From Luteolibacter sp. (GTDB taxonomy: Bacteria > Verrucomicrobiota > Verrucomicrobiia > Verrucomicrobiales > Akkermansiaceae): a stretch of DNA of 64,000 bases. Position numbers and translations under genes: made by a program. Location of the stretch: the NCBI GenBank assembly GCA_030696085.1, contig JAUYNL010000081.1, positions 62,001-126,000 on the forward strand, given 5' to 3'. Position 1 is the stretch's first letter. Every line of letters begins with the position of its first letter. Positions 46,770-52,197 of this stretch are shown piece after piece. The notes under the pieces were generated by a model. That model was not told where the DNA came from. It saw only the letters and a list, made by a program, of their open reading frames with translations, and ran no database searches.

Positions 46770-47720
46770 TCAGCGGATCGCCGCGAGCACCGGCGCGAGC
46801 GGGGTTTCCAATGGCGTGTCGGCGGCGACCTCTCCTAACAATCGCGCCGCGGTGGCGATGTGCGGGCGATACCATTCATCGCCGCGGTTCCTGAGGATGT
46901 TGCCATAGGCGCCCAGCGCCTGCATCAGGCGTTGCGCGGCGCATTCATGGAACAAGGTGGGCTCCGGGCGCTCGTCGGCGATGTCTTCCCATAACTTCAG
47001 CAGGCCCTCGCGCTCGTCCGCCGAGTGATCCATGTAGGGATCGAAAACCAACGACGCCAGATCGTATTCCTGGCGGCCGCGGCGCAGCCCCTGGAAGTCG
47101 ATGAGCCAGACCTTGCCATCCCTGACCAGCAAGTTTTGCGATTGGAAATCGCGGTGGACGAGATGCCGCGCCACCGTGCCGAGGCGCTCCGCCAGCTCGG
47201 TGAAAACCGGGTTTTTCCTCAAAGCGGTGGCATCCATGCCGAGGAAATCCTCCACCAGATGCTCGAAAAAATACTGCTGCTCCCAGCGATAGAGCGCCGC
47301 GTCGAAGGGCGGCATCAGATGGAAGTCCTTCGGCGGCTTCGCATAAAACAGCTTGTCCACCTGCTCGAAAGCGGAGCGGTAGAGCGGCAGCCGTTCCGCA
47401 AAGGGGCGCTCCTTCAGCGAGAACAGGTCCACGTCTCCCAGGTCCTCCACCAGCGCCACCCGGTAGCGCGCGCGCTCATGGATGATCTCCGGCACGCGCA
47501 GTTTCGCCTGTTTCAGGAAATTCCCCACCGGGATGTACTGCGCGTTGTCCTCGCGTTCCTCGGTCCAGTGGATGCCGATGAATGGTACGTGCACCGGCGT
47601 TTTCACGCGCACGATCGTGCGCCCGGACGCGCCGCGCTTGATCGGTTCCAGCGTGATGGGAACGGTCGGGTCCACACCGAGGAATTGTCGGGCGGTGGAA
47701 AGGATCGCTTCAGTGGGCAT
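46770..47720 (-). CDS. Phosphotransferase-fold sugar kinase, AmgK-like
   Basis: A 316-residue aminoglycoside-phosphotransferase-fold kinase. Seen: the N-lobe with FIGIHWTEEREDNAQYIPVG, VALVEDLGDVDLF, the catalytic loop LVHRDFQSQNLLV (HRD-type Asp) and the metal-binding VWLIDFQGLRRGRQEYDLAS. The 'DFQSQN...IDFQG' wording is typical of AmgK (N-acetylmuramate/GlcNAc-1-kinase of cell-wall recycling). Its usual neighbour MurU is absent here. Kinase function is well supported, the sugar substrate less so. Confidence 0.83.
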   Translation of the reverse strand: MPTEAILSTARQFLGVDPTVPITLEPIKRGASGRTIVRVKTPVHVPFIGIHWTEEREDNAQYIPVGNFLKQAKLRVPEIIHERARYRVALVEDLGDVDLFSLKERPFAERLPLYRSAFEQVDKLFYAKPPKDFHLMPPFDAALYRWEQQYFFEHLVEDFLGMDATALRKNPVFTELAERLGTVARHLVHRDFQSQNLLVRDGKVWLIDFQGLRRGRQEYDLASLVFDPYMDHSADEREGLLKLWEDIADERPEPTLFHECAAQRLMQALGAYGNILRNRGDEWYRPHIATAARLLGEVAADTPLETPLAPVLAAIR

Positions 47721-47857
47721 GGGCGGGGCAAATAGGCTGGAAATTCAAGCGGCTGCCAAGGGGAAAACCGGGTCACGATTCACTTGGCGGTTCTGACCGG
47801 TATCAGTCATGACATTCAACTTGCCTGTCGGGCGATGGTTCCGCAGATTGAGGTGTC

Positions 47858-49624
47858 ATGAAAGACGTTGTTTTTCTCGCCCTGATCGTGATGTTTCGAT
47901 TCATCGCGACGGCCGAGGGAGCCGAGTTGCTATGGACGCGGATTCATCCACAGGCGGATCTGGCGGGTTTCTCAGCCATAGCGAGTTCCAAGCAAGGTCT
48001 GATGGCAATCGGGGTGGCCAACGTGATTGACTACGCGGATGCCCCCGGGCTTTATTTTTCCAAAGATGGACACGACTGGATACGGGGCAAGGCCCCGGAA
48101 CGTGTGTGGTGGCGCGGGATTGCCGGATCCGGAGGTGGATTTGTCGCGGTGGGTGATGGTGGTGCCATTGCGTATTCCGAGCATGGATACGTCTGGGAAT
48201 CGATGAATTCCGGAGTGGTAGCCCACCTTCGTGCGGTGGGCTGGACGGGAAGCTCCTTCATCGCATGTGGCGCCGAGGGGAGAATCCTCCGTTCTCCTGA
48301 TGGCAAAACCTGGCAGAGCCAGGTTTTGAGCGGGGCGGCGAATTTTCAGGACGTGTTTCTTGCCATGGGTAAGGTGCATGTGGTGGGAAGCTCCACGCTC
48401 GCCATCTCGGTGGATGACGGCTTCGGATGGGCCATTCAGGATCTCGGTGTGCAGGCGAACTTGAAGCGGGGATGCGCGAGTCCCAACGGCGTTCTGCTCT
48501 ATTCCGATAGTGGGGGGATACGCCGGTTCTTCCGGGAAAGCGCACCCGGATCGTGGGAGACCATGGCGGCGCCGGGCCAGCGTCCTCTGACCGGCCTTGG
48601 TTTTCACGAGGAGAAGGGATTTCTGGCGGTCAATGACTATGGGGTCTTGCTGCTCTCGGCGGATGCGGTGACTTGGAGCACTTCAGCGGAAACACTCTCC
48701 GGGGCCGGGGCGATCTCCGGCGTCGAAGACGGATGGATCGTGGCTGGCAGCCAAGGTGAGATTCTTTGGGTGGGGCGTGGGCGCGGGTGGAATGTTCCAG
48801 TTCCGCTTCAGGCATCCGCGCACACGGTGGCAAGGCATGCCGGGCGCTATTATGCCTTCGGTCATTATGGTTGGATCCATTCATCTACAGACGGGGTCAA
48901 CTGGAACTCCTCCTATGGAGGCAGTTCGGCGGACGTTTTAAGATCGAGTGTGAGTTTCAATGATCAACTGATCGTAGTGGGTGCAAATGGAGCCGTGCGG
49001 CGAATCGATGCCGGAGGTGGGGTGAGCTTTGGCTATGTCGGGAGACTTGTCGATTTGCGTGCGGTGGCGAGTTCGGGAACCCGGATTGTCGCGGTGGGAA
49101 TGGGAGGTGTGATCTCCCGGTCTGACGACGGTCAATCGTGGCTTTCCGTGACCAGTCCGGTAACGGACGATTTGCATGCGGTCATTCACAGCAATGGACG
49201 CTTCCATGCGGTGGGCGAGAACGGGGTGATGATCGAATCTCTTGATGGGGTGGCCTGGGAGGTCGGAACGACAGGCGCCGAGGCGACGTTATTTGGCATC
49301 GCCGCCACCGATGCCGGGCTGGTTGCGGTGGGCGGTGGCGGAGTGATTTTAAGGAAAGTGGCGAGCGGAGCATGGCACACAGAGGAATCGGGAGTCATGT
49401 TCGATCTTCATGCTGTGCTTGAGTCAGATACCGGACTCTTGGTGTGTGGTGACGCGGGAACACTTCTAAGCAAGGCGGGCGATGGCCTCTGGACGAGTGA
49501 GCGAACGGGAATTTCCGGTGCTTGTGATTTGCGCTCGGCTGTTTTCACGGATGGTCGGCTGCTGCTTGTCGGAAGCAGCGGCTTTTACGAGGAATCGGTG
49601 TCGGCTTCGGCAAGCACTGGCTAG
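47858..49624 (+). CDS. Secreted beta-propeller repeat protein, N-terminal part (ends at in-frame TAG)
   Basis: A 588-residue product with signal peptide (VVFLALIVMFRFIATAEGAE). It is built from about eight blades each carrying a '[ST]-x-DG-x-x-W' Asp-box-like turn: FSKDGHDW, YSEHGYVW, RSPDGKTW, LSADAVTW, SSTDGVNW, RSDDGQSW, ESLDGVAW. It stops at TAG (49622-49624), but the following frame is the same and continues the same repeats for 724 codons, so this looks like the first part of one larger gene. A GAGGTG sequence 6 bases before the ATG is a good ribosome site. Family-wise it resembles Ycf48/BNR-type secreted proteins; ligand unknown. Confidence 0.82.
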   Translation: MKDVVFLALIVMFRFIATAEGAELLWTRIHPQADLAGFSAIASSKQGLMAIGVANVIDYADAPGLYFSKDGHDWIRGKAPERVWWRGIAGSGGGFVAVGDGGAIAYSEHGYVWESMNSGVVAHLRAVGWTGSSFIACGAEGRILRSPDGKTWQSQVLSGAANFQDVFLAMGKVHVVGSSTLAISVDDGFGWAIQDLGVQANLKRGCASPNGVLLYSDSGGIRRFFRESAPGSWETMAAPGQRPLTGLGFHEEKGFLAVNDYGVLLLSADAVTWSTSAETLSGAGAISGVEDGWIVAGSQGEILWVGRGRGWNVPVPLQASAHTVARHAGRYYAFGHYGWIHSSTDGVNWNSSYGGSSADVLRSSVSFNDQLIVVGANGAVRRIDAGGGVSFGYVGRLVDLRAVASSGTRIVAVGMGGVISRSDDGQSWLSVTSPVTDDLHAVIHSNGRFHAVGENGVMIESLDGVAWEVGTTGAEATLFGIAATDAGLVAVGGGGVILRKVASGAWHTEESGVMFDLHAVLESDTGLLVCGDAGTLLSKAGDGLWTSERTGISGACDLRSAVFTDGRLLLVGSSGFYEESVSASASTG

Positions 49625-49627
49625 GTC

Positions 49628-51799
49628 GTGCGGGAGTCCACGGGTGGGGGGATGGAGGTGATACGCCGGACCTACTCGGGACTTGAAGCGGTGGTGGCGG
49701 TGCCGGATGGATTTCTAGCAGCCGGATGGAACGGGCGGACGCTAATGTCCCCGGATGGAGAACATTGGAACGAGGGAAGTTTCCCCGGAACATGGACAAT
49801 CAGGGATTTGGCTGTGGCAGATGGTTTGATCCTCGCGGGCGGGGAACAAGGAATCATGGTTTCCTCGGATGGCAGGACATGGAGACCGGTGACCTATGAA
49901 AAATACCAACTGGGGCCGGCGACTTATGTGAGTCCGGCCAGGCATGTGAGGCGGATACTACGCGGTGACTCCGATTGGTTGGCGGTAGGATATTCCGGCA
50001 CGGTGCTGCGGTCGCTGGATGGCTTGTCGTGGCACCGCCCGGCAGACCCGGGGAAGGCGCTCGGCTCGGGCATATTGACGGGTGCGGCCTACGGCACGGG
50101 AATATGGGTGATCTCCGGGGAAAGCGGCAAGGTGCGGGTTTCGAGCGATGGTGAAACCTGGTCTGTCGTTCAAACGCCCACCTCCAAAACGATTCTGGAT
50201 GTCTGCCACTTCGGCGGACGATTTCTTGCCAGCGTCTCGGATGCGCCGGATATGATGCTCGAATCGGTCGATGCAATGACCTGGGTGTTGAGCCCGGGGA
50301 TCTCAGGCTGGCGTGCCGCCATGTTGCGTTTGGCTGACAACCGGTGTTTCGGTCTGGGGCCGAGAGAAAGAATCGCATCCACGGCGGATGGCACATCGTG
50401 GAGTTCCCATTGTGAAGGAACCAAGTTCAGCACGGATTCTGACATCGCCCGACCTGAAATCCGTGGCATCGCCTTCAAGGATGGGGTTTATGTCGCGGTC
50501 GGAACCCGGGGAATGGTTGGCCGCTCTGTGAATCGTGACAGTTGGACTCATGTGCTGGGAGGTGGTGTCCGGGGATTCCGTCGGGTATTCTGGATGCGGG
50601 GTCGATTGATCGCCCTTGCGGAGCCCGGGAATTTGCTCAGCTCCGTGGACGGTCGGTCCTGGACAAACCACCGGGCCGGAAACCATCCGCATGAACTGCT
50701 GACAGCGGTGGTTGACAACGGCACCTTGGCAGTGGCGGTCGGCAAAACGGTCCTGATATCAGACGACCTCGTTTCCTGGGTTGAGACTGGTGTGCCTGCG
50801 GGGAAGGAGTTCACGAGCGTGACATGGGATGGCACGCGCTTCATCGCGGGGTCAAAAGATGGCGGGATTTATCATTCCAGCGATGGGGCGAGTTGGAATT
50901 TGGAACTCGCGGGTCAACTTCGGATCGACGATGTGGCAGGGATCAATGGAATGGCCCTGGCTTTATCCGGGGCGAATATCAAGTCGTGGACGAATGCAGG
51001 GCCGTGGTTGCAAGTGCCCAATACCTGGGGCGGCGGGGACTATCGATTTCTATACGCGGACGGAACCAGTTTCATGGCGACGGGTAGTTCAAGCTTCTCG
51101 CTATGGTCGGCAGACGGGCGGAGTTGGGAGCGACTCTATCATTCCTCGCTGACTCCGGGACGGGTTGCCAAAGGCGCTCAGGGGCTCTATGCGTTATCTC
51201 CCGACTCGGTCAACAATCTCGTCTATCGACTCCTTGAATCCCAGGATGGCCGGCAATGGTCGGCGCTTCCGGTCTCACTGCCGGAGCGCGGAGTGAATGT
51301 GATCGAACAGGTAGGCGCACTCCTCACCTTTCACGAAAAGGGCGAAGTGTTGCTGGGATTGCCGCTTGTCAGCGCTGCCTTTCAAACCGAGATGCTTGCT
51401 TCCGGCTATCCTTTCCAATCCGATCTCAGTCCCTGCGCTGATGCCAATGGCGACGGGATTCCCAACATGGTGGCACACTATTTTGGATTGAACGTCGTGA
51501 ACCTCAATCCTGTAGGAATCGCAGCACTTCCGAAGCTGGAATTCGCGGGAAAGGAAGAAGGCGTGATCTCGGTGGGAATCCCGACACATGGGACTTCCCC
51601 GTCTTATTTGAGAGCGGCGATTGAAGCGGGCGAAGGTCTGGACGACTGGGAGGAAGTGGCGGTAAGATTCGGTGCTGGAGCATGGACGGCACGGGCAGGC
51701 GGTACGATTTCAACAGATGATGATGGTGACATCATGCTTAATTTGCCAGCAGATCCCCCCTCGAGGTTTTTTCGCCTGAAGATCGAAGAGGCGCCGTGA
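49628..51799 (+). CDS. Beta-propeller repeat protein, C-terminal part (no signal peptide)
   Basis: A 723-residue frame from GTG 49628 (ATG at 49652 possible), in the same frame as the preceding gene and separated from its TAG by one codon. It has about twelve further blades (MSPDGEHW, SSDGRTW, RSLDGLSW, SSDGETW, SSVDGRSW, SSDGASW, SADGRSW and others), then a Ca-binding-type module CADANGDGIPNMVAHYFG and a terminal beta domain. It lacks any export signal of its own, which argues it is the distal part of the upstream gene, translated by stop read-through or lost by a nonsense mutation. No ribosome site precedes it. Confidence 0.75.
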   Translation: MRESTGGGMEVIRRTYSGLEAVVAVPDGFLAAGWNGRTLMSPDGEHWNEGSFPGTWTIRDLAVADGLILAGGEQGIMVSSDGRTWRPVTYEKYQLGPATYVSPARHVRRILRGDSDWLAVGYSGTVLRSLDGLSWHRPADPGKALGSGILTGAAYGTGIWVISGESGKVRVSSDGETWSVVQTPTSKTILDVCHFGGRFLASVSDAPDMMLESVDAMTWVLSPGISGWRAAMLRLADNRCFGLGPRERIASTADGTSWSSHCEGTKFSTDSDIARPEIRGIAFKDGVYVAVGTRGMVGRSVNRDSWTHVLGGGVRGFRRVFWMRGRLIALAEPGNLLSSVDGRSWTNHRAGNHPHELLTAVVDNGTLAVAVGKTVLISDDLVSWVETGVPAGKEFTSVTWDGTRFIAGSKDGGIYHSSDGASWNLELAGQLRIDDVAGINGMALALSGANIKSWTNAGPWLQVPNTWGGGDYRFLYADGTSFMATGSSSFSLWSADGRSWERLYHSSLTPGRVAKGAQGLYALSPDSVNNLVYRLLESQDGRQWSALPVSLPERGVNVIEQVGALLTFHEKGEVLLGLPLVSAAFQTEMLASGYPFQSDLSPCADANGDGIPNMVAHYFGLNVVNLNPVGIAALPKLEFAGKEEGVISVGIPTHGTSPSYLRAAIEAGEGLDDWEEVAVRFGAGAWTARAGGTISTDDDGDIMLNLPADPPSRFFRLKIEEAP

Positions 51800-51927
51800 A
51801 TTCCAGCTCGAGAAGACGCACGCGGAATTCAAGCCGGATTTTCCTCACACGAGTGGTTGGTGAGACTGAGCGATCATGGTGGAGACACTTGGCAGCCCCC
51901 AGTAATCCGCAGGGAAAACCGGCGCTA

Positions 51928-52197
51928 TCACTCGTGATGATAAAACCAGAGCAATACCAGCAAGCCCACGCCAGCACCCCAGAGCAACCAGTCGTTGGTG
52001 ATGAAATACGGATAAATCATCAGCGCGAGCCCGATCACGCGGGGTTGCCAAAGATCCAGCTTCTTGCCGTAGGAAAACGCTCCCCAGCCGAGAGTTCCGA
52101 AGACGAATCCTGCCAGCAGATTGTAGGGGTTGAAGTTCAGCACGGGTGAATTCTGCGCCGGCGGGGCGAGTCCGCGAGCCTTTTTGTGACCTTTCAC
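51928..52197 (-). CDS. Small two-helix membrane protein
   Basis: An 89-residue protein with two hydrophobic segments (about 28-43, LLAGFVFGTLGWGAF; about 54-84, RVIGLALMIYPYF then LLWGAGVGLLVLLWF). This pattern is common among short conserved membrane proteins of unknown role. It starts with GTG at 52197, overlapping the moaD stop (GTGA), so it is coupled to the molybdenum-cofactor remnant operon. Confidence 0.7.
   Translation of the reverse strand: MKGHKKARGLAPPAQNSPVLNFNPYNLLAGFVFGTLGWGAFSYGKKLDLWQPRVIGLALMIYPYFITNDWLLWGAGVGLLVLLWFYHHE

Follow-up and report, generated by a model that had tools for sequence, protein, structure and literature searches.

In the window (the whole 64,000-nucleotide stretch of Luteolibacter sp. 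DNA analysed here), a gene for a large repeat protein starts on the forward strand at ATG 47858, which is preceded by GAGGTG. Its reading frame meets a TAG at 49622-49624 (...GGC TAG GTC GTG...; residue 589), and the same frame is then open to the stop codon at 51797-51799. There is thus one frame with one stop (588 + 724 codons; listed as locus L026, a 1315-codon frame with '1 TAG'), and the two long same-phase frames divided by a single in-frame TAG in the original prediction are confirmed by the sequence. The first ORF (47858..49624, + strand) encodes a signal peptide region with a hydrophobic core, MKDVVFLALIVMFRFIATAEGA (47858..47923, +), followed by 14 propeller blades, and it ends at the TAG. 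The continuation of the frame (49625..51796, +) encodes 14 further blades and a C-terminal module (DANGDGIPN..., ending FFRLKIEEAP; 51401..51796, +), and it has no signal peptide. The analysis also supports the earlier claim that the signal peptide belongs to the first frame only. The same claim described the module as Ca-binding-type; it is indeed present on the second frame only, while Pfam gives it no family. Other large proteins of the genus end in the same module. An imperfect 22-nt inverted repeat (82%; 51527-51548 / 51794-51815) brackets the last 245 nt of the module.

The second frame is coding, since a stop-free run of 724 codons is very improbable from base composition alone (p ~5e-11). 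No second lesion was found in these 724 codons. Each 1% of neutral divergence should add about 0.78 stops to the second half; if that half is neutral, therefore, a nonsense lesion is younger than about 4% divergence. No Shine-Dalgarno sequence was found at the possible starts 49628, 49652, and 49658, and the GTG at 49628 is merely a mechanical start of the second ORF. Promoter-like and terminator-like sites were also sought at the TAG junction and are not present, and a search for tandem DNA repeats returned none. A codon-model scan for split genes (761 kb of the same genome) was too noisy, and the propeller gene itself was not flagged because of its own codon usage.

A probable single gene at an insertion site

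The propeller gene lies on an inserted segment of about 4.14 kb (47772..51911, +) that is missing at this place in relatives. On its left is an APH-like phosphotransferase gene (46770..47720, -), a conserved neighbour, and on its right a small gene (DUF_89; 51928..52197, -), which is found beside APH in relatives. About 60 bp separate the orthologues of these two genes in congeners, where both have the same direction; here the propeller gene is inserted between them in the opposite orientation, and the APH promoter region is intact despite the insertion. The insertion is flanked by an 11-bp direct repeat, GGGAAAACCGG, with its left copy at 47761..47771 and its right copy at 51912..51922. At the empty site of relatives there is one copy of CCGG(A/T)TTTCCC before the APH promoter. 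The element CCGGTTTTCCC is thus single in relatives and is found here on both sides of the insertion. The repeats look like a target-site duplication, while recombination at a microhomology is a possible alternative origin. Neither a transposase nor terminal inverted repeats could be recognised at this single-gene insertion. The insertion is lineage-specific, and the propeller gene is a recent acquisition.

The two halves were most likely once one gene, because the signal peptide is on the first half only, the C-terminal module is on the second only, and a distant homologue of the same class (G589) has the same layout uninterrupted. In relatives, complete propeller ORFs generally have the N-terminal hydrophobic segment and the C-terminal tail on the same ORF. 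Codon usage in both halves is atypical for the genome (95th percentile each; GC3 0.62-0.63 versus a mean of 0.73), and the halves are closer to each other than average gene pairs are (4.6 versus 6.6). This common atypical usage most likely points to a single origin of both halves.

Propeller architecture and position of the TAG

The protein has 28 blades, 14 before the TAG and 14 after it. A repeat HMM built from the protein itself finds 23 of them and the remainder follow from spacing, so that the earlier figure of about 20 is corrected upward. The short Asp-box is defined as S/t-X-D/n-X-X-X-W/f/y and lies in the hairpin joining strands 3 and 4 of a blade (PMC2716378). This motif is repeated in the propeller gene, and about 16 copies of the form [ST]xDGxxW are present, i.e., in about 16 of the 28 blades.

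Residues 305-588 (propeller 2; 48770..49621, +) were folded with AlphaFold2 on an alignment to three further segments of this protein. The model (pLDDT 84.7, pTM 0.85) begins with one outer strand, continues with six full blades, and finishes with three strands (strand d + 6 blades + abc), and is predicted to be a closed 7-bladed ring. The model places boxes after strand 3 and before strand 4 of a four-stranded blade; box 39-45, for instance, is flanked by E35-39 and E46-49. The closed ring of propeller 2, the one propeller of the four that was modelled, aligns over 4-278 to 2z2n (Z 30.8, rmsd 2.4, 273 aligned) and matches other 7-bladed propellers over its full length with Z about 31. Propellers 1, 3, and 4 are probably also 7-bladed, to judge from their blade counts and from end-to-end alignment with segments 1 and 3. 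The most likely architecture is therefore four 7-bladed s-Asp-box propellers (2 + 2). A 7-blade periodicity was sought in the blade-to-blade similarity within the protein and none was found; for this reason the grouping into sevens is based on the fold and on some relatives whose blades are arranged in runs of 7 and about 14. The protein is predicted to be secreted, and most likely it would bind a surface, a polymer, or a protein partner.

Several known systems resemble this protein in part. The best Foldseek match of predicted propeller 2 is YCF48/HCF136, the 7-bladed photosystem II assembly factor (2xbg, 5ojp; TM 0.76-0.78, 16-18% identity). YCF48/HCF136 is, however, a single propeller, whereas here four stand in tandem with a C-terminal module, and the repeat ([ST]xDGxxW) is one residue shorter than that of YCF48/HCF136. 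The Pfam profile of this group, PSII_BNR (PF14870), does not match the propeller protein at E<=1, and the resemblance is one of fold only. With the Asp-box and s-Asp-box propellers the protein shares the motif S/t-X-D/n-X-X-X-W and the hairpin between strands 3 and 4; in known s-Asp-box structures, however, the short box is usually found in one or two blades (PMC2716378) rather than in more than half of them. GH74 tandem propellers and Aip1 likewise have paired 7-bladed propellers in one chain, but one pair instead of two. The propeller protein has no sequence match to solved structures. DUF6242 (PF19755) and the F510_1955 glycosylhydrolase profile (NF045728) give weak and partial matches to a few blades, at or near the cut-off for DUF6242 and far below it for NF045728, and no enzymatic assignment follows.

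The last strand of propeller 2 ends at residue 580 and the leading strand of the next blade starts near residue 599. Between them is a linker rich in S, T, and G (residues 581-597; 49598..49648, +), which contains the TAG and reads VSASASTG-TAG-VVRESTGG across it. The first ORF is thus able to encode two complete propellers, with the TAG within the linker. A single-sequence fold across the TAG reached a pLDDT of only 61; it has three strands before the stop and no strand around residue 589. The linker accounts for 1.3% of the protein and offers about 1% of its one-step nonsense targets. The position of the stop is consequently somewhat surprising for a purely blind event, whether mutation or error, although this argument is made after the fact. 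It slightly favours persistence of the stop because a folded product remains, and it is insufficient for claiming a programmed stop.

Relatives and stops elsewhere in the family

Among 73 congener genomes there is no orthologue of the propeller gene but only partial matches of about 26-47% identity, and a search of genome contigs for close relatives gave only one weak match, from Actinomycetes. The family itself is matched in 55 of the 384 sampled genomes of the class. In the homologue G589 two sets of about 14 blades are separated by an Ig-like stretch (a Pfam Ig_2 match with E 7e-5, below the Ig_2 cut-off) and followed by a C-terminal tail; its single frame of 1324 aa is uninterrupted, also across the position equivalent to the TAG junction. 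Single ORFs of 680-840 aa, matching one 14-blade unit in size, are common among the relatives. At about 4,675 aa, the open frame L224 (G530:C110) is a far larger relative, in which about 59 blades can be recognised, grouped in runs of 7 and about 17.

In homologous segments across the genus, order, and class, stops are found at about 1 per 7,700 codons; they are TAA or TAG and lie at mid-propeller positions. At this rate a gene of 1313 codons is expected to hold 0.17 stops, and about one in six such genes would show one in such assemblies. In a core-gene control (the APH gene in 69 genomes) there is 1 stop in about 21,800 codons, and the difference between the two rates is not significant (p about 0.09). 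A lone in-frame stop is found in three other family genes (L221, G547:C31, TAG; L222, G617:C71, TAA; L207, G274:C32, TAA). All three stops are in or beside an s-Asp-box; this exceeds the share of about 16% that the one-step nonsense targets of the window gene would predict, although the numbers are tiny.

Explanations for the in-frame stop

Taking as established one frame with one stop, the common origin of its halves, the insertion site, and the position of the stop relative to the predicted propeller, we regard an ordinary recent nonsense mutation between the propeller pairs as somewhat more probable than an even chance. Of the three options in the original prediction (recent nonsense mutation, programmed read-through, and a stop that creates a short secreted form plus a long form), this is the one favoured. 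A gene for a secreted four-propeller protein (7-bladed s-Asp-box, 2 + 2) with a C-terminal sorting or anchoring module would have been acquired, and a recent change to a stop codon in its flexible linker would now end translation between the propeller pairs. The secreted product would be a complete two-propeller protein that lacks the C-terminal module, presumably made and folded, and the second half would be translated little or not at all. This supposes a TAG that the population really carries. In agreement, propeller 2 remains closed in the model when the chain ends in the linker, and stops occur elsewhere in the family. On the other hand, the placement exactly between modules is unexpected, as noted above, and none of the 73 congeners has an orthologue carrying a sense codon at the TAG site. 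The gene could be read as a pseudogene, but the absence of decay across the 724 downstream codons fits a recent event only; the distant homologues are open, and none of them is an orthologue.

In the main rival view, which we think unlikely, the base at the TAG is wrong in the consensus or assembly of this draft metagenome-derived genome, or stems from a minority strain, and the gene in the population is intact with 1313 codons. One base accounts for everything in that case, the genome is in 110 contigs with 2% contamination, and homologous genes in other drafts likewise have lone stops. However, conserved genes compared with fragments from relatives show no stop or frameshift, shadow frames excepted, and an error would have only about a 1% chance of falling in the linker.

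If the second half were translated on its own from GTG 49628 or ATG 49652, through re-initiation or coupling, the two frames would act as two cistrons and yield two 14-blade proteins. The stop does divide the protein into two complete 14-blade halves, and many single-ORF relatives have the size of one such unit, but the second half has neither a signal peptide nor an evident ribosome site, so that a separately made product would remain cytoplasmic. The first half, moreover, lacks the C-terminal module, and the linker runs on smoothly over the stop. Such a pair of cistrons seems improbable.

Programmed leaky termination would give a short secreted two-propeller form and, through read-through in small amount, a four-propeller product that ends in the C-terminal module. 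The in-phase continuation, the intact downstream frame, and the stop exactly between modules are what it would look like, yet the programmed read-through of the original prediction is unsupported and we consider it very improbable. RF1 is present in the genome with a profile score over the cut-off. The search for a suppressor tRNA proposed earlier found no anticodon CUA among 43 tRNA genes; the genome is 96% complete, and a missed tRNA is therefore still conceivable. RNA structure downstream of the TAG is nothing unusual in comparison with shuffles (z -0.76). The stop is not conserved at the same site in homologues, which have no stop at the junction and other stops mid-propeller. Nothing on point was found in the literature on read-through and gene fission. 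One suppressor-tRNA candidate (L111, G000:C78:855-953) was rejected, as it contains no CTA; it is tRNA-like with an anticodon-loop insert of about 26 nt, and ARAGORN reports it as Leu(tag), or as Ser(gct) with an intron. Another gene (L116, G000:C68:10912-10993) is a tRNA-Leu with the anticodon AAG, which is unusual for bacteria.

We consider it very improbable that the TAG has been selected as a module switch, in which a leaky linker stop would give mostly a two-propeller protein, secreted and free, and as a minor product the four-propeller form that carries the C-terminal module. The TAG may still leave a short form that is meaningful, because it is exactly between two complete propeller pairs, a position which the original prediction had not seen.

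With this locus and its relatives, an s-Asp-box propeller family of 7-blade units is documented, in which modules are gained, lost, or broken from member to member. A real stop would show how a four-propeller gene, not long after its acquisition, is cut at a domain boundary so that two propellers are left. If the stop were programmed, this would be an unusual bacterial case in which a stop decides whether a secreted protein keeps its C-terminal module.
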